The notes under the pieces: model-generated | The model's database searches: none | What the model saw: only the letters and a program-made list of their open reading frames with translations | Told to the model about the DNA's origin: nothing | Translations under genes and position numbers: made by a program | Source: Desulforegula conservatrix Mb1Pa | GTDB taxonomy: Bacteria; Desulfobacterota; Desulfobacteria; Desulfobacterales; Desulforegulaceae | DNA length: 64,000 nucleotides | Assembly: GCF_000426225.1 (NCBI RefSeq) | Contig: NZ_AUEY01000015.1 | Coordinates: 1-64,000, forward strand | Direction: 5' to 3' | Shown here: positions 1-18,145 of the stretch, piece after piece | Layout of the letters: each line of letters begins with the position of its first letter | Numbering within the stretch: the stretch's first letter is position 1

Positions 1-175
1 ACCCTCTGCACGAGCCGTATCAGGTTCGCTTTCGCTATGTACCATTCTCTTCCTGTCGCTTCCTTCAAACCCTACCGTTACCAGTAGCGCCCTTGCGATT
101 CGGATTGATTTCCCCTCGGACGGGGCATCTCTGCTTTCTTTCAAACAGACGGGGGCACGGCTTTGCCGGGCAAAC
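1..175 (-). mobile_element. 5' part of a probable group II intron RNA (cut by window edge)
   Basis: Read on the minus strand, this stretch contains TCCGAATCGCAAGG and GCGAAAGCGAACCTGATAC. Both resemble conserved blocks of bacterial group II intron domain I as I remember them (CCGAATCGCAAGGCG and GAAAGTGAACCTAG). The element begins directly after the T-run of an intrinsic terminator; a GTTTGCCCGGC start at 175 is the likeliest 5' end, with a GTGCC at 158 as the alternative. Insertion just behind a terminator in the same orientation is the known habit of class C (IIC) introns. The maturase gene and the catalytic domains V/VI would lie left of the window and cannot be checked. No protein can be read from it. 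Confidence 0.5.
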
Positions 176-287: not shown

Positions 288-617
288 TTAGCTGCAGCAG
301 GAACTCGAAGTACCGCACCCAGAGCACCCACCTCCGTTAGGTGAGCTCAAATCAAGGCTTGATGACACTTTAAAGCCCATTTCATTGAAATCAATATGAA
401 CAGGGGTTGCAGCCTTCAAAAACTCGTTATCTGCTATGTATTTATGACCACCCACTTCGAACACCATATCAGAATTTTTGGCTTCATCCAGAGCCAATGC
501 CAATGAGGGGCCTGCTCAGCCACCACTTGTCAAAAAAACCCTGATAGGCATTACAGCCCGTCCTACAAAATATTCAGCAATCTGCTTCTGGGCAGATTCC
601 GTAACATCAATAACCAT
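288..617 (-). CDS. HesB/IscA-like selenoprotein with in-frame TGA (Sec34)
   Basis: The reading frame starts at ATG 617, eight bases after a strong AGGAGG, and runs 109 residues if the TGA at 516-518 is read as selenocysteine. The N-terminal part (MVIDVTESAQKQIAEYF) and the segment LTSGG-U-AGPSLALALDE join seamlessly to the rest, and the protein ends in a Cys-rich GGGCSGCG...CCS tail. This is the architecture of the HesB-like (seleno)protein family, small relatives of A-type Fe-S carriers. In that family Sec replaces the first conserved Cys, the one aligned with the SGC motif of IscA. Just after the TGA the mRNA can fold into a short hairpin (CAGGCC with GGCUCUG, one bulged U) with a GG in the loop, as a bacterial SECIS would. 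A conventional call would start at 503 and lose the redox-active N-terminus. A role in Fe-S or redox chemistry is inferred. Confidence 0.85.
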
Positions 618-3699: not shown

Positions 3700-4866
3700 T
3701 TAAGATGCAGGCCTCCTGTTCACATTAATTGAGCAGTTTTCAACCAAAGAAATAAGATCTTTTTCACTCAGAGTATTTTTTATCCTCGCCTCAAAATGTT
3801 TTCTGACTGATTTAAGTATTCTAACTGCCTCAAGATCCGTAACATTAATACCCATGGATTCAAGAACCTTTTTTATTGAAGCTCGCCCTGAATGCTTTCC
3901 AATGATAAAACTTTCTGATGAGCCAACTAATTCGGGGTTAAAAGCCTGATATGCAAGAAAATCAATAATCTGTCCATGAACATGGATACCTGATTCGTGG
4001 ACAAAAGCCTTTTCTCCCACAATTGCCTTGTTCACAGGGATTGGAATTCCAGATGCTTCAGATACTTTTTCGCATATTTTTTTTAGCGCCTCTGTCTTCA
4101 TGATCGTAGACCCTGGTTTTTTAAGAGCAAGCCACAGTGCAATTTCTTCAAGAGGAGTATTTCCCGCCCTCTCTCCAATGCCGCAGACTGTTGCACTGAC
4201 AGCGGCGGCTCCGGCCTCTATGGCAGATACTGCATTTGCTGTCGCCATGCCAAAATCATTATGGCCATGAAATTCAATTATTGTTGAAGATAGTACAGAA
4301 ACAAGGCTTCTTATCATTTCATAAATCTCCGAAGGAGAAGAAGATCCAACCGTATCTGCTATTCTGACCCTTGAAACCCGACTTTTTTCAGCCTCTTCAA
4401 CAAAAGTTTGCAGAAAACCAAAATCGCATCTTGTTGCGTCCTGGGCACCAACATAAACCCTGTCAAACATTTCAGATGCTTTGCCTGCTATTATTGAAAG
4501 ATTATCTATTGCCCATGCCCTGCTCTTTCCTTGAATCTTAAGATGGCGATCAGAAACAGGAAAACTGATATGAACATCAGATACTCCTGACTCAGCCGCA
4601 AGTTCAAGATCCGTCATATGAGCCCGGCACCATGCAATGATGCGTGATCTGCATCCTGAAGATGATAGTTTTTTCAGAAAATGCACTTCGTCATCACCCA
4701 TTGCAGGAATACCTGCTTCAATTTCATCGATTCCGGCATCGGAAAGCATCATGGCTATTTCAAATTTTTCTTCCCTGGAGAACGAGACGCCAGGAGCCTG
4801 TTCCCCATCTCTCAAGGTTGAATCTATAAGAATGATATTTTTATTATTGATATTTTCATGCAGCAT
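3700..4866 (-). CDS. nifV: Homocitrate synthase NifV
   Basis: A 388-residue enzyme of the DRE-TIM metallolyase family. It condenses acetyl-CoA with 2-oxoglutarate to give homocitrate, the organic ligand of FeMo-co. Family motifs are clear: the N-terminal STLRDGEQAPGVSF, HGHNDFGMATANAV with the metal-binding HxH, and GIGERAGNTPLEE. The length is typical of NifV and shorter than 2-isopropylmalate synthase, which carries an extra regulatory domain. The start codon overlaps the end of modC by 11 bases, so the two genes are translationally coupled, and the nif operon lies just upstream. An isopropylmalate or citramalate synthase role is unlikely in this context. Confidence 0.92.
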   Translation of the reverse strand: MLHENINNKNIILIDSTLRDGEQAPGVSFSREEKFEIAMMLSDAGIDEIEAGIPAMGDDEVHFLKKLSSSGCRSRIIAWCRAHMTDLELAAESGVSDVHISFPVSDRHLKIQGKSRAWAIDNLSIIAGKASEMFDRVYVGAQDATRCDFGFLQTFVEEAEKSRVSRVRIADTVGSSSPSEIYEMIRSLVSVLSSTIIEFHGHNDFGMATANAVSAIEAGAAAVSATVCGIGERAGNTPLEEIALWLALKKPGSTIMKTEALKKICEKVSEASGIPIPVNKAIVGEKAFVHESGIHVHGQIIDFLAYQAFNPELVGSSESFIIGKHSGRASIKKVLESMGINVTDLEAVRILKSVRKHFEARIKNTLSEKDLISLVENCSINVNRRPAS

Positions 4867-5656
4867 GGTTTGCCTCGCATTTTACTTTTAATCTTTTATC
4901 AAAATAACAAAGACGATCAGAGCTAATTTCAAAAATATCCTTTCTCTTCCAGCACGACAAAAGCTCTGAGACCTTTTCATTTTCCGGCTTCAAAAAAATT
5001 TCCGATGGCGTTCCAGTCTGCTGAATCTTTCCATCTGAGTACACAATCATTTTATCAGCGAGCTCAAGCGCTTCAGGAAAATCATGGGTAACAAGCACAA
5101 CCGGAATATTGAAAGTCCTTTGCATTGCTTTAAGGACGCTTCTCATTTCCAGTCTGATCATGCTGTCAAGGGCTGAAAAAGGCTCGTCAAGAAGCAAAAC
5201 AGATGGCTTTACGGCAAGCGCCCTTGCAAAGGCCACCCGTTGCTTCTGTCCGCCTGAAAGTCTTGTGGGATTTTTTTTCTCAAGTCCTTTCAAGTGAAAT
5301 AAGTCAAGCATCTCGTAAATTCTTTCTTTTGAGTTTTTCTTTTCATGCTTGTTAAGGCCGTAAGCTATGTTTTCCTCGACAGTCATATGAGGGAAAAGTG
5401 CATAATCCTGAAAAACAAAACCTGTTTTGCGTTTCTGAGGGCATTCGTTTAAGCCCGAAGACGAATCAAAAAGAGGTTTGCCATTAAGACAAACACTACC
5501 TGAATCTGGAGTCACAAGACCTGATATGGCTTTGAGTGTCATGGTTTTTCCTGATCCGGAATATCCGAAAAGGGCCACAAGCTCGTTCCCTGCTTCCCAT
5601 TTGACATCAAGATCAAACTCTCTGAGGCTTTTTTTTATATAAACTGAAATCCCCAT
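4856..5656 (-). CDS. modC: Molybdate ABC transporter ATPase ModC (short form)
   Basis: A 266-residue ATPase that powers molybdate import. The start at 5656 is chosen for the AAGGAG eight bases upstream. It has Walker A GYSGSGKT, the signature LSGGQKQR, Walker B VLLLDEPFSALD and the switch His in VTHDFPEAL. Classical ModC proteins have about 350 residues with a C-terminal MOP/TOBE domain that binds molybdate; here the protein stops about 35 residues after the nucleotide-binding domain, so that regulatory domain is missing. It overlaps nifV by 11 bases and follows modB by 74 bases. A tungstate or sulfate specificity cannot be excluded from sequence alone, but the nifV linkage favours molybdate. 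Confidence 0.88.
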   Translation of the reverse strand: MGISVYIKKSLREFDLDVKWEAGNELVALFGYSGSGKTMTLKAISGLVTPDSGSVCLNGKPLFDSSSGLNECPQKRKTGFVFQDYALFPHMTVEENIAYGLNKHEKKNSKERIYEMLDLFHLKGLEKKNPTRLSGGQKQRVAFARALAVKPSVLLLDEPFSALDSMIRLEMRSVLKAMQRTFNIPVVLVTHDFPEALELADKMIVYSDGKIQQTGTPSEIFLKPENEKVSELLSCWKRKDIFEISSDRLCYFDKRLKVKCEANHAA

Positions 5657-5730
5657 ACCAGACTCCTTTTTGGGCAATAAAATTTGCCGCTTGTGGATCG
5701 ACTATTTTTCAAAAGCTTCGCAAACAACTT

Positions 5731-6393
5731 TCAGATTTTTCGTGAATATCTATTGGCTAAATAAAGAATTGCCCCTGAAAAAATGGTCAAAAAAATAACC
5801 ATTATATGTCCCTTCCCCCATTCTCCAGAGCTAGCAAATGAATATATTGCTATTGGCATTGTATTTGTTTTACCAGGAATATTTCCTGCAAGCATGAGCG
5901 TTGCGCCGAACTCACCGATCCCCCTTGCAAACGAAAGTACTGCCCCGGCCATAATCCCTCGCCTGGAAAGCGGTAGAATTATTTTCAAAGCGGTTTCTAA
6001 TTCTGATCTTCCAAGCGTGTAAGACGCATTCACAAGATTTTCATCAACTTCTTCAATGGCTGCCCTCGCTGTTTTGATCATCAAAGGAAGCGATACGACA
6101 TAAGAAGCAAGGACAGCCGCCTGCCATGTGAACATCACTGTCCAGCCTGTCATTTCATATATTAAACTACCGATGATCCCGTTTCTCCCAAAAATAACAA
6201 TAAGATAATAACCTGTAACAGTGGGAGGGAGAACCATTGGAAGCGTCAGCAGAACGTCGAACATTTCCTTCCATTTAAATTGCTTTCTTGCGAGAATATA
6301 AGCAATCAGAACTCCGCTTGCTACAACCATTATGCTTGAAACAATGGAGACCTTGAGAGAAAGCATTATTGGAAAAAAATAAGTCGAATTCAT
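5731..6393 (-). CDS. modB: Molybdate ABC transporter permease ModB
   Basis: A 220-residue integral membrane protein with about five to six transmembrane segments. It contains the cytoplasmic EAA loop (DENLVNASYTLGRSELETAL...) through which permeases contact the ATPase. LPMVLPPTVTGYYL is characteristic of ModB. A modest AAGG site precedes the ATG. It sits 22 bases after modA and before modC, in the usual modABC order. Length is normal for the family. Confidence 0.92.
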   Translation of the reverse strand: MNSTYFFPIMLSLKVSIVSSIMVVASGVLIAYILARKQFKWKEMFDVLLTLPMVLPPTVTGYYLIVIFGRNGIIGSLIYEMTGWTVMFTWQAAVLASYVVSLPLMIKTARAAIEEVDENLVNASYTLGRSELETALKIILPLSRRGIMAGAVLSFARGIGEFGATLMLAGNIPGKTNTMPIAIYSFASSGEWGKGHIMVIFLTIFSGAILYLANRYSRKI

Positions 6394-6415
6394 ACCTTAA
6401 ACCTTATCCAATATT

Positions 6416-7174
6416 TCATTGCACAGGAGAAAAGCCATGCTTCTTTAGTATTTCAACCGCTTTTTCAGTTACAAGAATATCCAGAAACTTTTTTGACGCT
6501 CCTTGATTTTGACTTGCCGCAACAAGTGCAGCAGGATAAATTACTGGGGAATGCGAATCAGCCGGAGCCTTGACAGCAACAATAACTCCTTTTGGAACAG
6601 ACATGGCATCTGTTTCATAGACAATCCCTGCATCGACCTCATTTCTGACAACATAATCAAGGGCCTGTCTGACATTTTCTGAAAGCACTGTCTTTGTTTC
6701 AAGCTTTTTCCAGAGATCAAAATGAGTCAATACTTCTTTAGCGTATTTTCCTGCTGGAACTGTGGCAGGATTTCCGATGCATATTTTTTTAATCTCAGGC
6801 TTTGCAAGATCATCAAAAGATGAGATTTTGCCCACTGATCCTGACGGTTTGACAAGGACTATTGAATTTGAAGCAAAATTAATCCTGGAGTCCTTTATAA
6901 TAAGGCCTTTTTCAGACAAATCATTCATATCTTTTTGAGAAGCAGGCGCAAAAACATCGACCGGAGCGCCTCCTTCTATCTGTTTTTTTAAATCACCAGA
7001 CGCTCCAAAATTAAATATTATCTTTTCACCATTATTGATTTGCTCATATATTCTGCCTATTTCTTCAAAGGCATTTTTGAGGCTTATGGCTGCTGATACG
7101 CTTATTTCCCCGCAATAGCCCGAAGATGTTACAAAAATTAAAAGAATCGCAAGAATAGAAGTTTTTCTGAACAT
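6416..7174 (-). CDS. modA: Molybdate-binding periplasmic protein ModA
   Basis: A 252-residue substrate-binding protein. Residues 1-22 form a Sec signal peptide (hydrophobic LAILLIFVTSSG). The mature part opens with EISVSAAISLKNAFEEIG and contains FNFGASGDLKKQIEGGAPVD, the oxyanion-binding Ser motifs typical of ModA. DAGIVYETDA occurs in the second lobe. AAGGAGAATAAA precedes the ATG. It is the first gene of modABC-nifV. The 167 bases upstream hold a degenerate repeat copy and no promoter I could recognise. Confidence 0.92.
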   Translation of the reverse strand: MFRKTSILAILLIFVTSSGYCGEISVSAAISLKNAFEEIGRIYEQINNGEKIIFNFGASGDLKKQIEGGAPVDVFAPASQKDMNDLSEKGLIIKDSRINFASNSIVLVKPSGSVGKISSFDDLAKPEIKKICIGNPATVPAGKYAKEVLTHFDLWKKLETKTVLSENVRQALDYVVRNEVDAGIVYETDAMSVPKGVIVAVKAPADSHSPVIYPAALVAASQNQGASKKFLDILVTEKAVEILKKHGFSPVQ

Positions 7175-7204
7175 TTTATTCTCCTTGATGAGTGAGTTAT
7201 TTTA

Positions 7205-7275
7205 TGATTGTCTTGCAAAAAGTCAAAAATGGATTCCTGCCTTCGCCGGAATGACTGGGATCGGACTTTTTTTGA
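7205..7275 (+). repeat. Interspersed hairpin repeat, family A (partial)
   Basis: The sequence TTGCAAAAAGTC, CCGGAATGAC and ATCGGACTTTTT is a shortened copy of the same family as 3561-3690 and 50515-50655. It lies between the GNAT gene and modA. Confidence 0.6.
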
Positions 7276-7341
7276 ATTTGTCATTATATCACTAAAATTT
7301 AGTTTGATATAAAATCAAGATATTATGCAAATGCTCAAAAA

Positions 7342-7860
7342 TCAACCAATAATGTTTTCGGAATAATTTCTAAGACATATCATCCTGGTCATGTTCCAGC
7401 CCGTTTTCCTATAGAAACCAAGAGCTCCGTAATTATCCCTGTCAGCAAGAAGCTGAAGCCTTGAGATTCCTTTTTTTTCGGCCCATAAAGCCACATTTCT
7501 GATTAGCGCCTTGCCGATGCCTTTTTTTCTGAAATCAGGAGAGACAACCAGATCCTCAATAATTCCTGCAGGACCGCCCTCGGATGTTGAAATTATGGTC
7601 TGACACGAGCACATGCCTAAAACCCGGCCTTGAAATTCTGCAACAGCTATATATGCTGAATAAGAATCGATAAGAGCTGAAAGACCTTTTTTCTGTTTGG
7701 CCCTGTCGATAATATAATCAGGTTCAAGCTTGAAAAGGATTGCGATGAGATCAGCCAAGTCTTCGATATCATCTTTTGTAGCTGGCCTGACCCTGACTCT
7801 TTCGGCTGAATCTTTTCTAAGCACAACTTCCTTTCTGAAAACAGTTGCTGCTGATCCCAT
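7342..7860 (-). CDS. GNAT-family N-acetyltransferase
   Basis: A 172-residue acyl-CoA-dependent acetyltransferase. The start at 7860 follows AAAGGAG; an upstream in-frame alternative start precedes a hairpin and is less likely. The acetyl-CoA loop is RKKGIGKA (R/Q-x-x-G-x-G/A) at about residue 125, preceded by the strand IIEDLVVSPDF. The final part has the usual YGALGFYRKTGW. The substrate is unknown. It is the last gene of the nif run, 50 bases after the ferredoxin gene, so it is probably expressed with nitrogenase. GNAT genes do occur near nif clusters in anaerobes, but no defined job follows from that. Confidence 0.8.
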   Translation of the reverse strand: MGSAATVFRKEVVLRKDSAERVRVRPATKDDIEDLADLIAILFKLEPDYIIDRAKQKKGLSALIDSYSAYIAVAEFQGRVLGMCSCQTIISTSEGGPAGIIEDLVVSPDFRKKGIGKALIRNVALWAEKKGISRLQLLADRDNYGALGFYRKTGWNMTRMICLRNYSENIIG

Positions 7861-7874
7861 GAAAAAACTCCTTT

Positions 7875-7905
7875 TTAGAGGTGCGTTAGAATCACGCACC
7901 TCTAA
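7875..7905 (-). other. 12-bp stem-loop between ferredoxin and GNAT genes
   Basis: TTAGAGGTGCGT pairs perfectly with ACGCACCTCTAA across a 7-base loop. On the minus strand it lies directly after the ferredoxin stop and runs into the AAGGAG of the GNAT gene. It lacks a T-run, so it looks more like an RNA-stability or translation-control element than a terminator. Confidence 0.6.
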
Positions 7906-7910
7906 TTTTA

Positions 7911-8213
7911 TTAAAGCAGATATGATTCCGCAGGCTTACCATCTTCAAGCGCATCAAGAATCTCATCAATAATATCTTTTGAATCAACCCCGCCAAACCA
8001 GTAGTTCTGAGGATAAACCACAAGGACTGGTCCTTTTTCACAAGCCTTCAAGCATCCAGTCGATGAAATCATTGCATCAAGACCGCGATCAAGAATTTCC
8101 TCCTCAATATACTGCATAAGGGTCGCACCTGACTTTTTATGGCAGACTCCCTGGGGTTCTCCGCTGATTCTGAAACTTGAGCATACAAAGATGTGATATG
8201 TTGGCGTTCTCAT
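7911..8213 (-). CDS. Thioredoxin-like [2Fe-2S] ferredoxin
   Basis: A 100-residue protein starting at 8213 after AAGGAG. Cysteines at 11, 24, 54 and 58 (FVCSSFR, GVCHKK, GCLKAC) match the ligand spacing of the clostridial thioredoxin-fold [2Fe-2S] ferredoxin (11, 24, 56, 60 as I recall). That protein is known to interact with the MoFe protein of nitrogenase. A VVYPQNYWFGGV segment and an acidic C-terminus also fit the family. It is transcribed after nifB, so it is a candidate electron carrier or redox partner for nitrogenase. A NuoE-like subunit is less likely because of the small size and the absence of other complex I genes. Confidence 0.85.
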   Translation of the reverse strand: MRTPTYHIFVCSSFRISGEPQGVCHKKSGATLMQYIEEEILDRGLDAMISSTGCLKACEKGPVLVVYPQNYWFGGVDSKDIIDEILDALEDGKPAESYLL

Positions 8214-8283
8214 GTTTTGGTCTCCTTGATCTGAAATTAATATAAACAGGTTGGAGTATATCGAACCTGATTTTCTTTTTTGT

Positions 8284-8332
8284 TTGCCTCCGGCGGGTCG
8301 CTTTTTTGAAAAAAAGCTCCGCAAAAAACTTT
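8284..8332 (+). repeat. GCGGAGC hairpin repeat, family B
   Basis: GCCTCCGGCGGGTCGCTTTT followed by TTGAAAAAAAGCTCCGCAAAAAACTT. The inner part folds as GCTTTTTT/AAAAAAGC. Near-identical copies lie at 9876, 11372, 12975 (inverted), 57823, 59123 (inverted) and 60554 (inverted). Confidence 0.85.
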
Positions 8333-8389
8333 ATGATTATTGGGGCATAGGTGCCTTTTCACAAAAAACCTCATTATTAATAGCAGGCA

Positions 8390-8528
8390 TCTAATCTGAC
8401 ATAGGTTATTCCAATTCGCATTCAAGATGACAGCAAAGCGGCAAGGAGAAAAACCCGGAGACATACGTTTTTTGTACGTCGAGGATTTGAAGATGCAGGC
8501 AATGCAGCTGCCGCTTGAATGCGGTTGA
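8390..8528. repeat. Long palindromic repeat, family C
   Basis: This begins ATTCCAATTCGCATTCAAG and ends CTTGAATGCGGTTGAAAT, with internal TACGTTTTTTGTACGTC. A related copy with the same ends and an ACGTACAGAAAACGTACGT core lies between nifI2 and nifD (16375-16505). Confidence 0.75.
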
Positions 8529-8530
8529 AA

Positions 8531-9802
8531 TCACATGCACCCCATTCCTCCGCCTCCACACCCTTTTGCCTGAAACGGCCTGAGATGATTAAGGTTTTTT
8601 CCTGTCCAGAATCCTGGAAGAATGTCAGAAATCATACCTTCCAGAACATTCACATCTATTCCGTGACCAGTCAGAACTCTCTTGGGTGTGTCCCCTATTC
8701 CGCTGACCATGAGCGCCGAACAGTCAGAAATTACACTTGCAATCTTCTCCCACCTTGTATCTCCTCCGCCCTGGGGAGGAGCCTCTCGAACATCAAACAG
8801 AACCGGAAGTCCTGATTCTTCCTTATAAATGTAAAGTTTGCGAGCTTCGCCAAGGTGCTGGTTAATCAGAAGCCCTTCCCGGGTTGCAACTGCTACATAT
8901 CTGCCAGATCCTGGGACAGCTTTTTTCATCGGGATCAGGTTCTCCATTTTCTGATATGATTGCAGCTTTTCCATTATCTCGTCGGAATTGCTTTCACCAA
9001 GACATCCGACTGCATCTGCTCTGCATCTTGCACAATGGGTCATCTGGGACATGAATTCGCCTGCCTCTGACCTTGCCTTTTTCAAAGCCTCGTGATCTGG
9101 TTCTCCAATCCCTTCAAACGCTGCTCCCTCGCAAGGATAATGAGGAATAATGTTCATGATGTCAGCACCGAGACTGTAAACTTTCTCGGCAATATCCCTG
9201 ATATGTTCAGTATTTATACCAGGGAGAAGAATCGTATTTATCTTGATCTTGATTCCGTATTTTTTTAGAAGAGCTATTGCTTCAAGCTGTTTTTCAATGA
9301 AAGTTGCAATTCCTTCGGACGCGCTCAAAACACGCTTGCCATGCCTGAACCAGGCGTATACTTTTTCTCCCACTGCCGGATCAACAGCATTAACAGTAAC
9401 TGTAACGTGGCTGACGTTCAGTTTTGCCAGCTCAGGAACATAAGGCGCAAGATTAAGACCGTTTGTTGCAAGACAAAGAATCATTTCAGGATACTTTTCA
9501 TTAACGAGCCTCATGGTTTCCATCGTGTCCTCTGCATTTGCAAAAGGATCGCCAGGCCCTGCTATTCCAACAACCGCTATGTTTTTCTTTTCAGAAAGAA
9601 TGTCATCCAGATATGCAAGTGCCTGATAAGGACTGAGAACTGCGCTTGCCACTCCTGGTCTGCTTTCATTCACACAGTCAAACTTGCGATTGCAGAATCT
9701 GCACTGAATATTGCATCTTGGAGCTACAGGCAGATGTACGCGGCCATATTTTTTTCTTGCTGATGCGTTGAAACACGGATGATTTTCAAAACTGTTTTCC
9801 AT
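8531..9802 (-). CDS. nifB: FeMo-co biosynthesis radical SAM protein NifB
   Basis: A 423-residue protein that builds NifB-co, the Fe8S9C precursor of FeMo-co. The radical SAM cluster motif is at residues 30-37 (CNIQCRFC). The following NRKFDCVNESRPG is diagnostic for NifB, and GIAGPGDPFAN and LATNGLNLAPYV are also present. From about residue 300 there is a NifX/NafY-like domain (YVAVATREGLLINQHLGEA) that ends in a Cys/Gly-rich tail. This two-domain form is the common one and may substitute for a separate NifX, which is absent here. TAAAGGAG precedes the start. It lies downstream of nifN, with a family B repeat in the gap. Confidence 0.96.
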   Translation of the reverse strand: MENSFENHPCFNASARKKYGRVHLPVAPRCNIQCRFCNRKFDCVNESRPGVASAVLSPYQALAYLDDILSEKKNIAVVGIAGPGDPFANAEDTMETMRLVNEKYPEMILCLATNGLNLAPYVPELAKLNVSHVTVTVNAVDPAVGEKVYAWFRHGKRVLSASEGIATFIEKQLEAIALLKKYGIKIKINTILLPGINTEHIRDIAEKVYSLGADIMNIIPHYPCEGAAFEGIGEPDHEALKKARSEAGEFMSQMTHCARCRADAVGCLGESNSDEIMEKLQSYQKMENLIPMKKAVPGSGRYVAVATREGLLINQHLGEARKLYIYKEESGLPVLFDVREAPPQGGGDTRWEKIASVISDCSALMVSGIGDTPKRVLTGHGIDVNVLEGMISDILPGFWTGKNLNHLRPFQAKGCGGGGMGCM

Positions 9803-9875
9803 GGCGTATCTCCTTTAGTCCAAAATGAACTGAAACCCTTATTCAATCAATTATTCAAAAAATATCGGGAAACCG

Positions 9876-9924
9876 GCCTCCGGCGGGTCGCTTTTTTGGA
9901 AAAAAGCTCCGCAAAAAACTTATG
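9876..9924 (+). repeat. GCGGAGC hairpin repeat, family B
   Basis: GCCTCCGGCGGGTCGCTTTT...AAAAAAGCTCCGCAAAAAACTTATGG, nearly identical to 8284-8332 and in the same orientation. It fills the nifN-nifB gap. Confidence 0.85.
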
Positions 9925-9959
9925 GTTTTGTTGCCCCTATTCTTGTGAATCCATCAAAG

Positions 9960-11330
9960 CTATATATAGGTGTATCCAATCTCAGATTCCTCCTGCATAT
10001 TCTCAATCAAAGTATTGCAGATTGAGTCAAAAAAGGCCTGGGTCCCCCGATAGCCAATCTGAAGTATCCTTGCGCCGCCCATCCTGTCGTGAATCGGCAT
10101 TCCAGCTCTTAAAAGAGGGACTCCGGTTTTTCTGCTCATAGCAAAACCCTTGCTCGAACCAATCAGAATATCAGGAGAAAGTTCTTCAACAGCTTCTTCA
10201 ATGTCTCTAAAATCTGCCGAGTCAATTATGCGGATATCCTTTTCATCAAAATCAGACACAGCTTCTTTCATGGCAGCAACAAATCTGCTGCTCATGTCGC
10301 CAGACGCTGCAATCACCGGAGTTATGCCGATTTCAGACAGGAAGCCGCAGATTGCCGTAACCATGTCTGCCTCGCCAAAAACAGCCGCCGTCTTTCCTGC
10401 AACGTATTTATGACCGTCCACATAGCTGTCTATCAGTCTGGCCCTTTCTTTTTCATATTTTTCAGGAACAGGTTTTCCGGAAGCATGTGAAAGCTCATTC
10501 ATGAATAAATCCGTAGCTTTCACACCAATCGGCCTTTCCATTTTTCTGGCAGTAACATGAAACTCCTTTTCCAGATATTCAGCAGCGGATAATCCTGATG
10601 TTGACACCTTCCCGAATTCCACTGACATTACCGAAGCTCCCATGCACTTTATTTCTTCAACAGATGTACCGCCTGAAGGAAGTTTCTGGTATTCAGCCCA
10701 GGGGCCACCATCAAGGGTTTCGCTGTAATCTGGAAGGATGACTGGCTTAAGGCCGAAATCCTCGCTAATTTCTCTGAGATGCCTCAAATCTGCTGTCGAA
10801 AGCATTCCTGGAAGAATATTCACAACAGGTTGTTCAATTGATTCTGGCTTATCTGCTCCAGCAATGGTTTTAACCATTGAAAGAACAGCAGCCTGGAAAC
10901 CGTCTGCATGGGTTCCTGCATAACTCGGAGTCGATGCAAACGGCATTGAAGGAAGACCAGTTATGCCTTTGCTGATTCTAAGCTCCCTAAGTGCAAGAGG
11001 GACGTCCTCGCCAATTGTTTCTGAAAGACAGGTACTTGCAACGCCAATCATTTCTGGAGAATACTGACGGACAATATTCAAAAGACCAGTCTTCAAAGCT
11101 TCTCCTCCGCCAAAAATTGTGGAAGCTTCGGAAAAATTAGACGCCGCAATATCAAGGGGTTCCCTGAAATGGCTGATCAGATAGCGTCTTATATATGTCG
11201 CGCAGCCCTGGGAGCCGTGCAGAAAAGGGATCGCACCCTTTACTCCTTTATATGCGAGGCAGGCTCCAAGCGGAGCGCACAGTTTGCAAGCGTTCTGGGT
11301 AAAATCACGGTTTGGGATGTTTGTTTCCAT
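9960..11330 (-). CDS. nifN: FeMo-co scaffold protein NifN
   Basis: A 456-residue homologue of NifK that pairs with NifE to mature NifB-co into FeMo-co. The N-terminus carries CKLCAPLGACLAYKGVKGA and HGSQGCATYIRRYLISHF, then NFSEASTIFGG and STCLSETIGEDV, all aligned with NifK blocks. Gene order after nifE and before nifB supports NifN over NifK, and the genuine nifK is already assigned at 13128-14504. AAGGAGAGCAGC precedes the ATG. Confidence 0.95.
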   Translation of the reverse strand: METNIPNRDFTQNACKLCAPLGACLAYKGVKGAIPFLHGSQGCATYIRRYLISHFREPLDIAASNFSEASTIFGGGEALKTGLLNIVRQYSPEMIGVASTCLSETIGEDVPLALRELRISKGITGLPSMPFASTPSYAGTHADGFQAAVLSMVKTIAGADKPESIEQPVVNILPGMLSTADLRHLREISEDFGLKPVILPDYSETLDGGPWAEYQKLPSGGTSVEEIKCMGASVMSVEFGKVSTSGLSAAEYLEKEFHVTARKMERPIGVKATDLFMNELSHASGKPVPEKYEKERARLIDSYVDGHKYVAGKTAAVFGEADMVTAICGFLSEIGITPVIAASGDMSSRFVAAMKEAVSDFDEKDIRIIDSADFRDIEEAVEELSPDILIGSSKGFAMSRKTGVPLLRAGMPIHDRMGGARILQIGYRGTQAFFDSICNTLIENMQEESEIGYTYI

Positions 11331-11371
11331 GCTGCTCTCCTTATATAATCAAGCCTGATAATTAATCAGCT

Positions 11372-11416
11372 GCAAGCGGATCGCTTTTTTGAAATAAGCT
11401 CCGCAAAAAACTTATG
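11372..11416 (+). repeat. GCGGAGC hairpin repeat, family B
   Basis: A diverged copy (GCAAGCGGATCGCTTTTTTG, then AATAAGCTCCGCAAAAAACT) in the nifE-nifN gap. Confidence 0.75.
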
Positions 11417-11467
11417 GTTTCATTTTTTTGTCAGATGCCTAACAAATCCATAAAGTTTTTTGGGGGT

Positions 11468-11495
11468 GTGGGGACTTTTTTCAAAAAGTCCCCAC
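11468..11495 (-). other. Strong stem-loop just after nifE
   Basis: GTGGGGACTTTTT pairs perfectly over 13 bp with AAAAAGTCCCCAC around a 2-base loop, five bases past the nifE stop. No T-run follows on the minus strand, so it may be a partial terminator or a 3'-end stabiliser within the operon. Confidence 0.65.
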
Positions 11496-11499
11496 GTTC

Positions 11500-12882
11500 T
11501 TACGCCGCCTTTCCTGAAGATTCTTTTTTTACTTCGTTTCTTGCAGGAAAAAGCTTCCATACAGGACTTAAAACCGTATTCCTGACTTCTCTGGCAAAGT
11601 GAAGCATGCCTTCAAAACCTGCCAGGGGAATTTTCCTTTCGTGATTATGATCGCAGAAGCCAATGCCCATTTTGTAGGCTATAGGCCTTTCTTTGACTCC
11701 GCCTATAACAAGATCGGCCTTTTTCTCGATTATGAATTTTGCAAGTTCAAGCGAACTGGCATCATCCACAATTATGGTTCCTGGATCGCAGATTTCCTTT
11801 AAGGTCTTGTAGTCTTCTTTTGCCCCTGTCTGGGAACCGATTACAACCACATCCATGCCTATGTTTTTAAGGGCCTTGAGAAGCGAGAAAGCCTTGAATG
11901 CTCCGCCCACATAAACGGCTGCTTTTCTTCCTTCAAGCTGCCTTCTTATGGAAAGGACTTCAGGATGTATTTCAGCAATCTCGGCTTTAATCATCTCAGA
12001 TGTATTTTTCAGAAGCTCTGCATCACCGAAGAATTCTGCCACATCATAAAGAGCCTTGGCTGTATCCTCGACTCCAAAATATGAAACCTGGATGTAAGGA
12101 ATTCCGAATTTTTCCTTCATCATCTTTGCAAGGCCGGTCATGGAGCCGGAACACTGCACCACATTTAGAGATGCAAGCGGAGCGTTTCTGATATCATCAA
12201 CCCTTCCGTCTCCTGTCATTACAGAAATGATGTTGACGCCCATTCTTCTGTAGTATTCCTTTATTATCCAGGCCTCTCCGCCGATATTGAATTCTCCGAG
12301 AATGTTTATGGCAAACTTAGGCTTTTCATCCATATTCGGACTGAAATTATCAAACAGGGTGAAAAGAGCCTGACATGCCGCTGCATAACCATCCTTTTTT
12401 GTTCCCTTAAATCCTTCTGAGTGAACAGGAATCACAGGAATGCCGGTTTCTTCAGTTACTTTTCTGCATATTGAATCAACATCATCACCTATTACTCCGA
12501 CTATGCAGGTAGCATAGACAAAGGCAGCCTTGGGTTTGTACATCTCGATCAACTGAGTAAGAGCCGCATAAAGCTTTTTCTCGCCGCCAAATATGACATT
12601 TGTCTCCCTCAGATCAGTTGAAAAACTCAAGCGGTGAAGCTGCGGGCCTGATGAAAGAGCTCCTCTTATGTCCCAGGTATAAGCCGCACAGCCGATGGGG
12701 CCGTGAACAAGATGAAGAGCATCAGCAATCGGATAAAGAACAACTCTTGACCCGCAGAAAACACATGCTCTCTGGCTTACGGAACCTGAAACGCTCTGGG
12801 ATTCGCATTTCATTTCAAAGTCATCATTGCCCTTGGTGAATATCTGCTTCTTGCGTTCGTCGAGTATTGATATATCTGTCAT
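11500..12882 (-). CDS. nifE: FeMo-co scaffold protein NifE
   Basis: A 460-residue homologue of NifD and partner of NifN. It has QRACVFCGSRVVL, the P-cluster-type block HGPIGCAAYTWDIRGA, ETNVIFGGEKKLYAAL and YATCIVGVIGDD. The FeMo-co ligand His block of NifD is changed (ERPIAYKMGIGFCDHNHER), as expected in NifE. AAGGGAG precedes the start. It lies between nifK and nifN. Confidence 0.95.
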   Translation of the reverse strand: MTDISILDERKKQIFTKGNDDFEMKCESQSVSGSVSQRACVFCGSRVVLYPIADALHLVHGPIGCAAYTWDIRGALSSGPQLHRLSFSTDLRETNVIFGGEKKLYAALTQLIEMYKPKAAFVYATCIVGVIGDDVDSICRKVTEETGIPVIPVHSEGFKGTKKDGYAAACQALFTLFDNFSPNMDEKPKFAINILGEFNIGGEAWIIKEYYRRMGVNIISVMTGDGRVDDIRNAPLASLNVVQCSGSMTGLAKMMKEKFGIPYIQVSYFGVEDTAKALYDVAEFFGDAELLKNTSEMIKAEIAEIHPEVLSIRRQLEGRKAAVYVGGAFKAFSLLKALKNIGMDVVVIGSQTGAKEDYKTLKEICDPGTIIVDDASSLELAKFIIEKKADLVIGGVKERPIAYKMGIGFCDHNHERKIPLAGFEGMLHFAREVRNTVLSPVWKLFPARNEVKKESSGKAA

Positions 12883-12974
12883 GGCTATTCTCCCTTGATT
12901 TCAGATTTTTGATTGATGATTTTTGTTATGTGCTTGCCATCCAGAATCAAAAATCAGGATTCCAAAATCTAAAA

Positions 12975-13025
12975 TCCATAAAGTTTTTGCGGAGCTTTTT
13001 TTCAAAAAAGCTACTCGCCGAAGGC
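12975..13025 (-). repeat. GCGGAGC hairpin repeat, family B (inverted)
   Basis: AAGTTTTTGCGGAGCTTTTT...CAAAAAAGCTACTCGCCGAAGGC is the inverted version of the copy at 9876. The preceding GATTTTTGATTGATGATTTT also recurs next to the copy at 59123, so the full unit is nearer 120 bases. Confidence 0.8.
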
Positions 13026-13048
13026 ATACCAGCCTACATTCCTGAACT

Positions 13049-13072
13049 GGGAGGGCGATTGACTGCCCTCCC
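13049..13072 (-). other. GC-rich stem-loop downstream of nifK
   Basis: GGGAGGGC pairs with GCCCTCCC around an 8-base loop, about 55 bases after the nifK stop. There is no clear T-run. It could attenuate read-through from nifK into nifE or protect the nifHDK message. Confidence 0.55.
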
Positions 13073-13127
13073 GCTCCGGGCTTGCGCGCAGCATCAGTTA
13101 TTAAGCAAAATCACGTGTGCTGCGTTA

Positions 13128-14504
13128 TTACATAACCAATTCAAAATTTTCTTCCGGTGCATCCCGATCCTTTCTTTCAAGAATCGCATCGAGAATTTTT
13201 TCAACAAGACGCAAACCGCCTTTATAGCCTACAGTCGGAAAGTAACTGTGTCCCACCCTGTCCAGAATCGGGAAACCGTATCTGATGAACGGTATATCTT
13301 CGTCTCTGGCTATGTATTTGCCGTATGTATTAGCTATTAAAAGATCAACCGGCTCATTCTTTATCCACTGATGAAGCATAAAAAGGTCAGAATGAGACTT
13401 AACATTCACCTTCACAGGAAGATGCTTTGTAAGATCCAAAATCGTCTTTTCAAACTGCTTTCCAGGGGTTCCAGTAACGACATGAACTGGGTACATGTCG
13501 ATGCTTACAAGAAACTCGGTAAGAGCTATCAGCTGATCAGGATCACCTGCTATTGCGACTTTCTTTCCGTAGAAATACTGGTGCATGTCAGTGATCACAT
13601 CCACAAGCTGACCTCTGTCCCTGTTGATGGAATCAGGTACGCTCACGCACGCCATTTTCCTCAAGGCATCCACATATCTGTCCGTGCCGTGAAGGCCGAT
13701 GGGCAGATCAAGGATATCGCATTTCACTCCGCATTTGGTTTCAAGAGCCAAAGCAGCCGCAGAAGAAGCTGTTTTCCCAAGAGCGATTGTTGCCATGCTG
13801 TCGCCGGTTGATTTCAGATCCTCAACACTCACACCGCCCCGGGGAAACATGTGATATCGACCGGTTTGAGGACCGTTCAGGACATTCGACGTATCCGGAA
13901 ACATGATTGTCGATATTCCCATTTCAGAGGCGATTCTCTTAATTTCTTCCATGTCCGAAGGTTCGACATAGCCTGGGATGATGTTCATTTTACCATTTTT
14001 GACTTCAGTTTTTTCAGAAAGACAGTTGACCATGCCTTTTACCATATTGGCAAAACCAGTTACATGCGAACCAACGTAGCTTGGAGTGCTCGCATATATG
14101 ATATGCTTACCCGCCGGAACCTTGCCTTCTTCATGCGCCTTTCTTGTAATCTGTGTAAGGTCATCACCTATTGTTTCAGAAAGACAGGTTGTATGAACCG
14201 CAATCACCTCAGGATTATAAATGGTGAATATATTGTCTATGGCCTGCACAAGATTGGACTGACCGCCGAAAACAGACGACCCTTCTGTGAATGAGCTTGT
14301 GGCTGCCATGACCGGTTCTTTATAATGCCTGGTCAGAGTACTTCTATGGTAAGCGCAACAGCCCTGGGAACCATGACTGTGAGGCAGACATCCCTTCACA
14401 CCCAAAGCTGCATACATCGCGCCTATTGGCTGGCATGTCTTTGCCGGGTTTATGGAAAGAGCGCTTCTTTCTTTTATTTCTGTTGGAGTGTGTCGAAGCA
14501 GCAT
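13128..14504 (-). CDS. nifK: Nitrogenase MoFe protein beta chain NifK
   Basis: A 458-residue subunit of dinitrogenase. The start at 14504 follows AAGGAG. P-cluster cysteines are visible at residue 24 (CQPIGAMYA), 49 (GSQGCCAYH) and 107 (HTTCLSETIGDD). The N-terminus is short compared with Azotobacter NifK, lacking about 46 residues, which is typical of the Clostridium/Desulfovibrio-type enzymes. It lies about 200 bases after nifD. Confidence 0.97.
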   Translation of the reverse strand: MLLRHTPTEIKERSALSINPAKTCQPIGAMYAALGVKGCLPHSHGSQGCCAYHRSTLTRHYKEPVMAATSSFTEGSSVFGGQSNLVQAIDNIFTIYNPEVIAVHTTCLSETIGDDLTQITRKAHEEGKVPAGKHIIYASTPSYVGSHVTGFANMVKGMVNCLSEKTEVKNGKMNIIPGYVEPSDMEEIKRIASEMGISTIMFPDTSNVLNGPQTGRYHMFPRGGVSVEDLKSTGDSMATIALGKTASSAAALALETKCGVKCDILDLPIGLHGTDRYVDALRKMACVSVPDSINRDRGQLVDVITDMHQYFYGKKVAIAGDPDQLIALTEFLVSIDMYPVHVVTGTPGKQFEKTILDLTKHLPVKVNVKSHSDLFMLHQWIKNEPVDLLIANTYGKYIARDEDIPFIRYGFPILDRVGHSYFPTVGYKGGLRLVEKILDAILERKDRDAPEENFELVM

Positions 14505-14544
14505 AAGAACTCCTTTATTTCTGTAATGTGGACACGCCACCATT

Positions 14545-14700
14545 ATTTTCTCGTAAGTCGGACAAGAGTACTCTTTTGCTCTTACTCCGACAAAAACTCA
14601 GTTTTATGAGGATCAGGGCAAAGGGGAGACTTTGGCAGCCTTTTATCTATCGCCCTGATCCCCAACCGGAAGGAGAGGATTTATCCGGATATCTTTTTCA
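14545..14700. other. nifD-nifK spacer with inverted repeats
   Basis: The spacer contains GATCAGGGC...GCCCTGATC (arms 9 bases, about 35 apart) and GTCGGA...TCCGAC. nifD and nifK are usually only a few bases apart, so this spacer is long. No promoter was recognised. Confidence 0.5.
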
Positions 14701-14702
14701 GG

Positions 14703-16358
14703 CTAACTGTTTGCGAATGCTGCAGAAAGCTCAGGATTCAAATCCCATGGAGCTTTTGAGTATCCCCATATTTTGCTGTTAACCATACGGTCAATATCTT
14801 TGTAAAAATTGACGGCTCCCTTGAATCCAGCATAAGGCCCGCCATAATCATAGCTGTGAAGCTGTTTGAGCGGGATGCCGTGTTTCTGGACAGCATATTT
14901 TTCCTTGATGCCCGCACAAAAAATATCAGGCTTAAGATTTTCGATTATATAATCAGTCTCGTACTGGCTGATATCGTCTATGACAAAAGCCCCATCCTTC
15001 ATTTCAGGCATCATCCCCACATAATCTGCCCAGTCGATTCCTTCTTCCTTGAGCTTTGCAAGTTCTTCGGCGCTTTTTCTCGGTTTGTACCGGACTTCAT
15101 CAGCAGAGACCTCAAGCTCTTCGATATTCCTTGAGTCGGCGTCCACTTTGATTGTCGGAATAACTTTTCTGCCCTCATAGTCATCGCGATGTCCGAATTC
15201 ATAGCCAGCCATGAGAGTTGTCATTCCAATTTCAGAGAAAAGCTCCTGATAATGGTGAGCTCGTGACCCGCCAACTACCAGGGCCGCTGTCTTGCCATTG
15301 CACCTTGTTTTTACATCAGCCATTACCATTTCAACCTCAGGCATTTCTTCTGCAATAACTTCCTCAACTTTTGCTATGAGTTCAGGATCTTCAAAATATG
15401 CCGCTATCTTCCTGAGAGATTTGGCAGTCGCCGCCGCGCCTATGAAATCAACCTTAAACCATGGAATTCCGTATTTTTTCTCCATCATTTCAGCCACATA
15501 ATTGATAGATCTATGGCACATTACGGTATTCAGATCGGCAGTATGGCTGTTTGCAAAGCCGTCATATGTCGAGTTGCCACTGAATGTCGAATGAAGCGTA
15601 ATTCCGCATTTATCAAAGATCCTTTCGAGTTCAAAAGCATCGCCGCCAATGTTGTATTCACCAAGTAGATTAACCTTGTACTTGCCCTTTTTTATAGTGT
15701 CATCCAGACCTATTATATGTGTGAACAAGCCATTGTTTGCTATATGATGTCCCGCTGACTGGCTGACACCCTTGTAGCCTTCACAGCTGAAGGCAAAAAC
15801 GTTTACGCCGAGCTTTTCCTTCATCTCTTTGGCAACAGCATGCACGTCATCACCGATAAGACCTACCGGACAGGTAGAAAATATGCTTATGGCCTTAGGT
15901 TTAAAAAGGTCATAGGCTTCCTGGATACATGCCTTGAGCTTTTTCTCGCCGCCGAAAACAATGTCCTCTTCCTGCATGTCTGTGGTGAAACAGTATGTCA
16001 TGAAGTTTTCATCAGTCTCTGCTTCTGGCTTTGTCTGGTTGCGTCTTGTAAGCCATGAATAAAAACTGCATCCTACGGGGCCGTGGGTAATATTCACGAT
16101 ATCGCGGGTCGGCCCCAGAACAACGCCCTTGCATCCTGCGTAACTGCATCCTCTCTGGGTAATTATGCCAGGGATGGTTCTTACGTTCGATTCTATTTCA
16201 GGAACACACCCGTCATCACACACCTTATTTACCATGATGTGTTTGGCCCTCTTTCTGGCCACTTTGGACGGATAAATCCTGGTCATATCAGTCTTGATTT
16301 CCTCAGGAGTCATTTCTGTTCCGTTGACTTCATATTTTAATGATTCTTTCGTGCTCAT
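14703..16358 (-). CDS. nifD: Nitrogenase MoFe protein alpha chain NifD
   Basis: A 551-residue subunit carrying FeMo-co. The start at 16358 follows GGAGGG. P-cluster cysteines are at 71, 97 and 163 (RGCSYAG, HGPVGCSFYSW, FSTCPVGLIGDD). The FeMo-co ligands are Cys281 (VMCHRS) and His501 (KQLHSYDYGGPYAGF), and the substrate-channel His of SAGHH is at 204. The Cys-His distance is about 53 residues longer than in Azotobacter, because of an insertion around residues 410-465. This insertion marks the group II (clostridial/Desulfovibrio) MoFe lineage. The residues rule out a vanadium or iron-only enzyme as far as can be judged, since no delta-subunit gene is present. Confidence 0.97.
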   Translation of the reverse strand: MSTKESLKYEVNGTEMTPEEIKTDMTRIYPSKVARKRAKHIMVNKVCDDGCVPEIESNVRTIPGIITQRGCSYAGCKGVVLGPTRDIVNITHGPVGCSFYSWLTRRNQTKPEAETDENFMTYCFTTDMQEEDIVFGGEKKLKACIQEAYDLFKPKAISIFSTCPVGLIGDDVHAVAKEMKEKLGVNVFAFSCEGYKGVSQSAGHHIANNGLFTHIIGLDDTIKKGKYKVNLLGEYNIGGDAFELERIFDKCGITLHSTFSGNSTYDGFANSHTADLNTVMCHRSINYVAEMMEKKYGIPWFKVDFIGAAATAKSLRKIAAYFEDPELIAKVEEVIAEEMPEVEMVMADVKTRCNGKTAALVVGGSRAHHYQELFSEIGMTTLMAGYEFGHRDDYEGRKVIPTIKVDADSRNIEELEVSADEVRYKPRKSAEELAKLKEEGIDWADYVGMMPEMKDGAFVIDDISQYETDYIIENLKPDIFCAGIKEKYAVQKHGIPLKQLHSYDYGGPYAGFKGAVNFYKDIDRMVNSKIWGYSKAPWDLNPELSAAFANS

Positions 16359-16374
16359 AAGTCCCTCCGTATGT

Positions 16375-16505
16375 CTTATTCCAATCCGCATTCAAGCGGC
16401 AGCGGTGTTGGCTATGTCGTCGGCTCCTCAACGTACAGAAAACGTACGTCTGCGTCGCCTCCTCCTTGCCGCCTTGCTGTCATCTTGAATGCAAATGGAA
16501 TCGAG
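16375..16505. repeat. Long palindromic repeat, family C, between nifI2 and nifD
   Basis: This starts TTATTCCAATCCGCATTCAAG and ends CTTGAATGCAAATGGAATCG, with a CGTACAGAAAACGTACG core. It shares both ends with the copy at 8390-8528 in inverted order. It separates nifI2 from nifD inside the operon. Confidence 0.7.
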
Positions 16506-16886
16506 CTAAATTTCATCAAGGGCTGAATCGCCGCTTTCACCGGTTCTGACCCTGATCGCATCAGTTGCCGGAAGGATAAAAATCTTGCCGTCGCCGGCTT
16601 TTCCTGTTTTATTGACCTTGATTATAGTTTTGACTATTCGGTCAACCATCTTGTCCGGCACAACCATTGTAAGCAGGCGTTTTGGAATCAGCCTGTTTGT
16701 CTGGCCAAGCTGGGAAATGGCCTCCTCGTATCCAAGTTCAGCGCCTTTAAGGAGTGAAAGATCAACAAGCCCCTTACCTCGTCCGAGAACTTCCCTCGCG
16801 GTCATGGAAGAAATCCCTGCTTCGGTGAGGGCTGCCTTTGTCTTGTTCATCATGTCCATTCGGACAATAGCCAGGACTTCTTTCAT
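16506..16886 (-). CDS. nifI2: PII-family nitrogenase regulator NifI2
   Basis: A 126-residue GlnB-type protein. With NifI1 it forms the complex that inhibits dinitrogenase after ammonium addition and is relieved by 2-oxoglutarate, as shown in methanogens. It has the PII N-terminus MKEVLAIVRMDMMNKTKAAL, a T-loop region (LGRGKGLVDLS...) and the C-terminal GKAGDGKIFILPATDAIRVRTGE. The start overlaps nifI1 by four bases (ATGA). The position between nifH and nifD is the family hallmark. Confidence 0.94.
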   Translation of the reverse strand: MKEVLAIVRMDMMNKTKAALTEAGISSMTAREVLGRGKGLVDLSLLKGAELGYEEAISQLGQTNRLIPKRLLTMVVPDKMVDRIVKTIIKVNKTGKAGDGKIFILPATDAIRVRTGESGDSALDEI

Positions 16887-17239
16887 ATTTTGACCTCCTC
16901 AAGTTCGCCTGAAGGCAATTCCTTAATTCCTGAACTTATGGTGTAAGACTCAAGCACAGGGGTTATAAAAATTTTGCCGTCTCCGTAAGCGCCCTTGTCA
17001 CCTGTACGTGCCGCCTTTATAATAGTCTTGACAACGAAATCCTTGTCCTGGGGTTTAACAACTGTGAAAATCAGGTTTTTTGAAATCTCGTCATATGTGA
17101 TTTCACCTATTTTGATTCCGCGCTGCTTTCCTCGGCCAACTACAGGGAATTTAGTTACGGCAGGAAAGCCTGCTTCCATGAGTGAGGCAAGAACACAATC
17201 TGTCTTTTCCGGTCTTATTATAGCTCTGATCATTATCAT
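16883..17239 (-). CDS. nifI1: PII-family nitrogenase regulator NifI1
   Basis: A 118-residue GlnB-type protein with MIMIRAIIRPEKTDCVLASL, a T-loop around VVGRGKQRGIKIGEI and the closing GAYGDGKIFITPVLESYTI. It acts with NifI2 in post-translational nitrogenase switch-off. It lies about 80 bases after nifH and overlaps nifI2. AAGGAGAAACTCC precedes the ATG. The Tyr that is uridylylated in classical GlnB is not in an obvious position in this T-loop. Confidence 0.94.
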   Translation of the reverse strand: MIMIRAIIRPEKTDCVLASLMEAGFPAVTKFPVVGRGKQRGIKIGEITYDEISKNLIFTVVKPQDKDFVVKTIIKAARTGDKGAYGDGKIFITPVLESYTISSGIKELPSGELEEVKI

Positions 17240-17317
17240 GGAGTTTCTCCTTATTATCGTAGGCCAAATTAGAGCGCCCTTTGCTCGTAATCAGGCAAAA
17301 TTAATTTAAATTCTGAA

Positions 17318-18145
<828 letters not shown>

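Follow-up and report, generated by a model that had tools for sequence, protein, structure and literature searches.

The window analysed here comprises 64,000 nucleotides of contig NZ_AUEY01000015.1 of the anaerobic bacterium Desulforegula conservatrix Mb1Pa, and near its start, on the minus strand, lies a gene of the IscA/HesB type that, by frame and homology, reads as a selenoprotein of 109 amino acids (288-617). The frame runs from ATG 617 to the TAA stop at 288 and contains one TGA (518-516) in the context SGG-U-AGP, which is read as Sec34; the translation begins MVIDVTESAQKQIAEYFVGRAVMPIRVFLTSGGUAGPSLALALDEAKNSD. The ribosome-binding site AGGAGG (628-623) stands five bases before the ATG, the C-terminal tail is rich in cysteine in translation, alignment and model (C98, C101, C107 and C108, positions 291-326), and an intrinsic terminator with a 12-pair stem and a T run closes the gene (181-208). 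Under translation table 11, the sole ORF listed at the locus is 288-503, which starts at a TTG, encodes 71 amino acids and lacks residue 34; no ribosome-binding site was found upstream of this TTG. Ordinary gene finders would lose one third of the protein, because selenocysteine replaces the key cysteine of the relatives. The earlier note had read from the letters alone an AGGAGG-preceded ATG at 617, a frame open through the TGA, a HesB/IscA-like product with the TGA at the first conserved Fe-S carrier cysteine, a compact hairpin with GG in its loop behind it, and a start at 503 by standard callers at the cost of the key residue, all of which agrees with the features described here and below.

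Upstream of the gene, a complete nitrogenase cluster begins at a distance of 3 kb (window 3700-18142, minus strand), with nifH, two small ORFs in the nifI position, nifD, nifK, nifE, nifN and nifB, followed by genes for a DUF1636-like protein, a GNAT protein and a modABC-like transporter and by a nifV-like gene. A small ORF, a PilZ-like protein, which scores under the Pfam cut-off, and a GGDEF protein lie on the same strand between the selenoprotein gene and the nifV-like gene. HesB has long been associated with nif. Twelve regions around copies of ten relatives of the same order, comprising ten Sec copies and two Cys copies (L090-L101), were compared with the window by BLASTP; no nif-like protein was found in them, and only the ABC ATPase of the window has a match there. 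A link of the selenoprotein with nif is therefore not supported, and its adjacency in the window is probably due to chance. On the other side of the gene, just behind its terminator, the contig ends in a group II intron, of which the 5' part is present (window 1-175, minus strand). Its match to RF02001 reaches 22.8 bits, below the gathering score, and no Rfam family reached its gathering score in the window. Eleven copies of the intron, with 99-100% identity and most of them near contig ends, are present in the genome, and each of the four that were compared starts directly behind a hairpin that resembles a terminator and has a T run; insertion behind such hairpins is a habit of bacterial class C introns.

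The protein is a member of the NCBIfam family NF038090 (IscA_HesB_Se), which has a curated cut-off of 85 bits: it scores 107.3 bits (E 4e-31) with residue 34 read as cysteine and 100.3 bits from the DNA. The match, from residue 3 to residue 100, is nearly whole-length and covers both sides of the TGA; the family likewise has Sec or Cys in this column and a C-terminal cysteine tail. No notable difference from the family was seen, and the protein is an ordinary member with 36-66% identity to the other aligned rows. The older model TIGR01911 (HesB_rel_seleno) matches it weakly, with 18 bits against a cut-off of 66.35, although the HesB-like selenoproteins, which occur in Methanococcus and, under the name 'HesB-like', in Syntrophobacter, Geobacter and Desulfovibrio, belong to the same superfamily and have the same UxGP motif, with Sec for the first cysteine (PMC13188914; PMC1794560). 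By these scores, the specific family is NF038090 rather than TIGR01911. The models for IscA, SufA and ErpA (TIGR02011, TIGR01997 and NF010147) give 38, 34 and 32 bits, all under their cut-offs, and the protein also stays under the cut-offs of TIGR00049 and PF01521. In this genome, which is 96% complete, PF01521 detected no A-type carrier of the classical kind, but the same model missed all three NF038090 paralogues that the genome encodes, so its silence is no proof against the fold.

In structural terms, the profile of 44 relatives matches the solved IscA-type structures 1nwb, 2apn, 1s98, 1r94 and 2d2a, and residue 34 falls on the conserved cysteine of GGCSG in the matches to 1nwb and 1r94. 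The AlphaFold model has a confident core, with pLDDT mostly above 90 and lower values around residues 31-40, and a disordered tail; its best Foldseek matches are E. coli IscA 1r94 (E 4e-7) and SufA 2d2a, and IscA with [2Fe-2S] (1x0g) was also found. With E. coli IscA, SufA and ErpA (1r94, 2d2a) the protein shares the predicted fold and the GG[C/U]xG motif, but it has Sec in place of Cys35 and a tail of the form CSGC...CC (CxxC...CC) instead of CxC. In A-type carriers, the C-terminal tail supplies the two remaining ligands, the site of E. coli IscA being made up of Cys35, Cys99 and Cys101; as the tail differs from CxC, a ligand role for it is unproved.

Relatives are common in the phylum: NF038090 members that pass the cut-off occur in 168 of 395 genomes. 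Most of these members, among the matches listed, have exactly one TGA, and those with a TGA come from all parts of the phylum; the order gives the same picture, with a relative in 131 of its 146 genomes. Among the loci fetched, 61 distinct family genes, the window gene included, have the TGA at exactly the codon of residue 34, and the others have a Cys codon there. In each of the 44 aligned rows, the column of this residue is occupied by Cys or TGA and by no other residue. The tree requires at least five switches between Sec and Cys. Two Cys paralogues of the window gene were found in the same genome (G000), on contig C45 (28630-28911; L024) and contig C81 (11990-12280; L023). The first is the nearest row to the window gene in the tree (support 98/84), has SGGC-APPY instead of the xGP motif and contains no hairpin remnant that could be found; its position suggests that the gene was duplicated in this lineage and that one of the two copies changed. 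Sec and Cys copies are also arranged in tandem in a number of the phylum's genomes (L027, L028, L029, L036, L049, L053 and L054), suggesting, from the sequences, repeated duplication with exchange of Sec and Cys.

A SECIS-type hairpin follows the TGA on the minus strand (497-478). It reads UUGGCUC-UGGAU-G(A)AGCCAA, with seven pairs and one bulged A, and its loop (490-486), which has the GG inside it, lies 25 bases from the UGA. Across the family, the sequences imply the hairpin (U)UGGCUC-UGGAY-GAGCCA(A). The window gene has GAAGCCAA as its 3' arm and retains seven pairs by bulging one A; this bulge is absent in most relatives, and the window hairpin is weaker than most of theirs. This shifted register also occurs in L068, L082 and L089. 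No gaps interrupt the alignment of the TGA genes between the TGA and about codon 14, and in this stretch codon 8 is GCT in 59 of the 61 genes, the loop codon 9 is CTG in all 61, codon 10 is GAT or GAC in 60 and codon 11 is GAG or GAA in all 61. By contrast, ten homologues with a Cys codon scatter over CTG, CTT, CTC, TTG, TTT and ATT and do not keep the hairpin. When the window gene is recoded synonymously, just 0.7% of the variants form a stem of this length beneath a UGGAY loop (median over all genes, 0.5%), and 85% of cells pair in the hairpin register compared with 17-53% when it is slid. As the helix is nearly constant, covariation is weak: a single change affects both sides, a count that 125 of 500 shuffles also reach.

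The model of bacterial SECIS elements in the literature allows a loop of 3-9 bases, a stem of 4-16 pairs and a distance of 16-37 nt from the UGA, asks for a G among the first two bases of the loop, and sets an energy limit of -7.5 kcal/mol (PMC13188914). With a loop of 5, seven pairs with one bulge, a G at position 2 and 25 nt, the window hairpin is within these limits of loop, stem, G position and spacing, and its energy is -7.1 alone and -7.5 to -10.0 in stretches that start 3-9 bases after the UGA, where its pair probabilities are 0.55-0.98. Another fold beats it if the stretch takes in the UGA or the bases directly ahead of it, or if it extends 80 bases downstream. Since a ribosome decoding the UGA occupies the bases that come directly after it, the later-starting stretches are the relevant ones for folding. 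Taken by itself, the folding energy is unexceptional, with z-values from +1.4 to -2.8 depending on the stretch, and 10% of the synonymous recodings fold as well as the native sequence. The case for the window hairpin as a putative SECIS is accordingly comparative and does not come from the folding energy of a single sequence.

The genome (4.47 Mb in 178 contigs) contains the genes for selenocysteine insertion. The searches found selA on contig C13 (605 bits), selB on C97 (381 bits) and selD on C8 (366 bits), and a tRNA-Sec with a TCA anticodon lies on C31 (77.6 bits). The selD gene also encodes a selenoprotein: its frame contains a TGA in the context SASG-U-AAK (L010:1531-1533), as is the case in many bacteria that use Sec. 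The earlier note had inferred a working Sec machinery and had proposed looking for selA, selB, selC and selD, aligning homologues with Cys at this site and examining the bases after the TGA for a SECIS. The gene content supports the inference, as selA, selB, selD and the tRNA-Sec (selC) are all present; every aligned homologue has Cys or Sec at the column, and the hairpin agrees with the published model in loop size, stem length, G position and spacing, with an energy close to the limit.

The TGA is one base away from both TGC and TGT, and it could in principle have arisen recently by nonsense mutation (TGC to TGA) in an ordinary Cys-type hesB, so that the product would end at residue 33 in a dying gene whose function the intact Cys paralogues on C45 and C81 could cover. 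This reading is most improbable, given that many relatives across families have the TGA at the same codon, that the hairpin codons are conserved in the TGA genes only, that the gene retains a good ribosome-binding site, an intact frame and a terminator, and that the genome encodes the Sec machinery. Scarcely any credence can be given either to a true stop at the TGA with a restart at TTG 503: the conventional ORF 288-503 does exist, but its TTG has no ribosome-binding site ahead of it, and the resulting 71-residue protein would be deprived of residues 1-38, which are conserved in the family and include the ligand position. The locus is almost certainly a genuine selenoprotein gene, judging from the sequence comparisons, with UGA 518-516 decoded as selenocysteine. 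In the mechanism proposed, SelA, SelB, SelD and tRNA-Sec would decode this UGA, and the hairpin at 497-478 would recruit SelB to it.

What the product does is a separate matter. It is predicted to adopt the IscA fold, in which Sec34 and the cysteines of the tail may form an Fe, Fe-S or sulfur site equivalent to Cys35/Cys99/Cys101 of E. coli IscA, and Sec may act there as a more nucleophilic ligand or as an exchange residue under anaerobic conditions; such a role for Sec34 is a guess to which we give about an even chance. A putative function as an A-type Fe-S carrier draws its support from the predicted fold and the ligand column. Somewhat short of an even chance is assigned to the reading that the protein is a selenoprotein that keeps only the IscA fold and handles redox reactions, sulfur or metals without being an Fe-S carrier. 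The tail motif is unlike that of IscA, the neighbours of the relatives (macro domain, nitroreductase, NDK, FmdE and others) include no constant Fe-S partner, the function of HesB-like selenoproteins has been called unclear, and the Methanococcus maripaludis protein, which was identified via mutagenesis and 75Se labelling, could be disrupted in a mutant that still fixes nitrogen (PMC11097638). On the other hand, residue 34 falls exactly at the carrier ligand column and the tail cysteines are kept, and the lack of a classical A-type carrier under PF01521 leaves the three NF038090 proteins as candidates for the carrier job. The stronger proposal, that the selenolate of Sec34 directly ligates an Fe-S cluster that can be passed on, which would make the protein a selenium-dependent A-type carrier, and that it serves nitrogenase maturation here, is unlikely, and its nitrogenase part is weak because nif linkage is absent around the Sec copies of the ten relatives.

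The earlier note had taken the existence of a HesB-like family with Sec members as known. HesB-like selenoproteins have been catalogued since 2005-2006, when 11 were counted in bacteria (PMC1794560; PMC1088965); these bacterial proteins may belong to TIGR01911 or to NF038090. The bacteria included Syntrophobacter, Syntrophus, Desulfovibrio, Geobacter and Desulfuromonas, and two Sec-to-Cys conversions and a relict SECIS were described for the family (PMC1794560), which was known also in Deltaproteobacteria at that time. A 2026 review lists it with the motif UxGP (PMC13188914), and a literature search for HesB selenoproteins in Desulfobacteraceae yielded no paper. The gene described here is real and is a further member of an already known, named selenoprotein family, to which it adds a well-supported protein that ordinary gene callers cut. 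The SECIS core GCUCUGGAYGAR is unusually constant across the phylum and could serve the automatic annotation of the family, and the genomes in which Sec and Cys paralogues stand side by side are good places to test why an Fe-S carrier fold uses selenocysteine.
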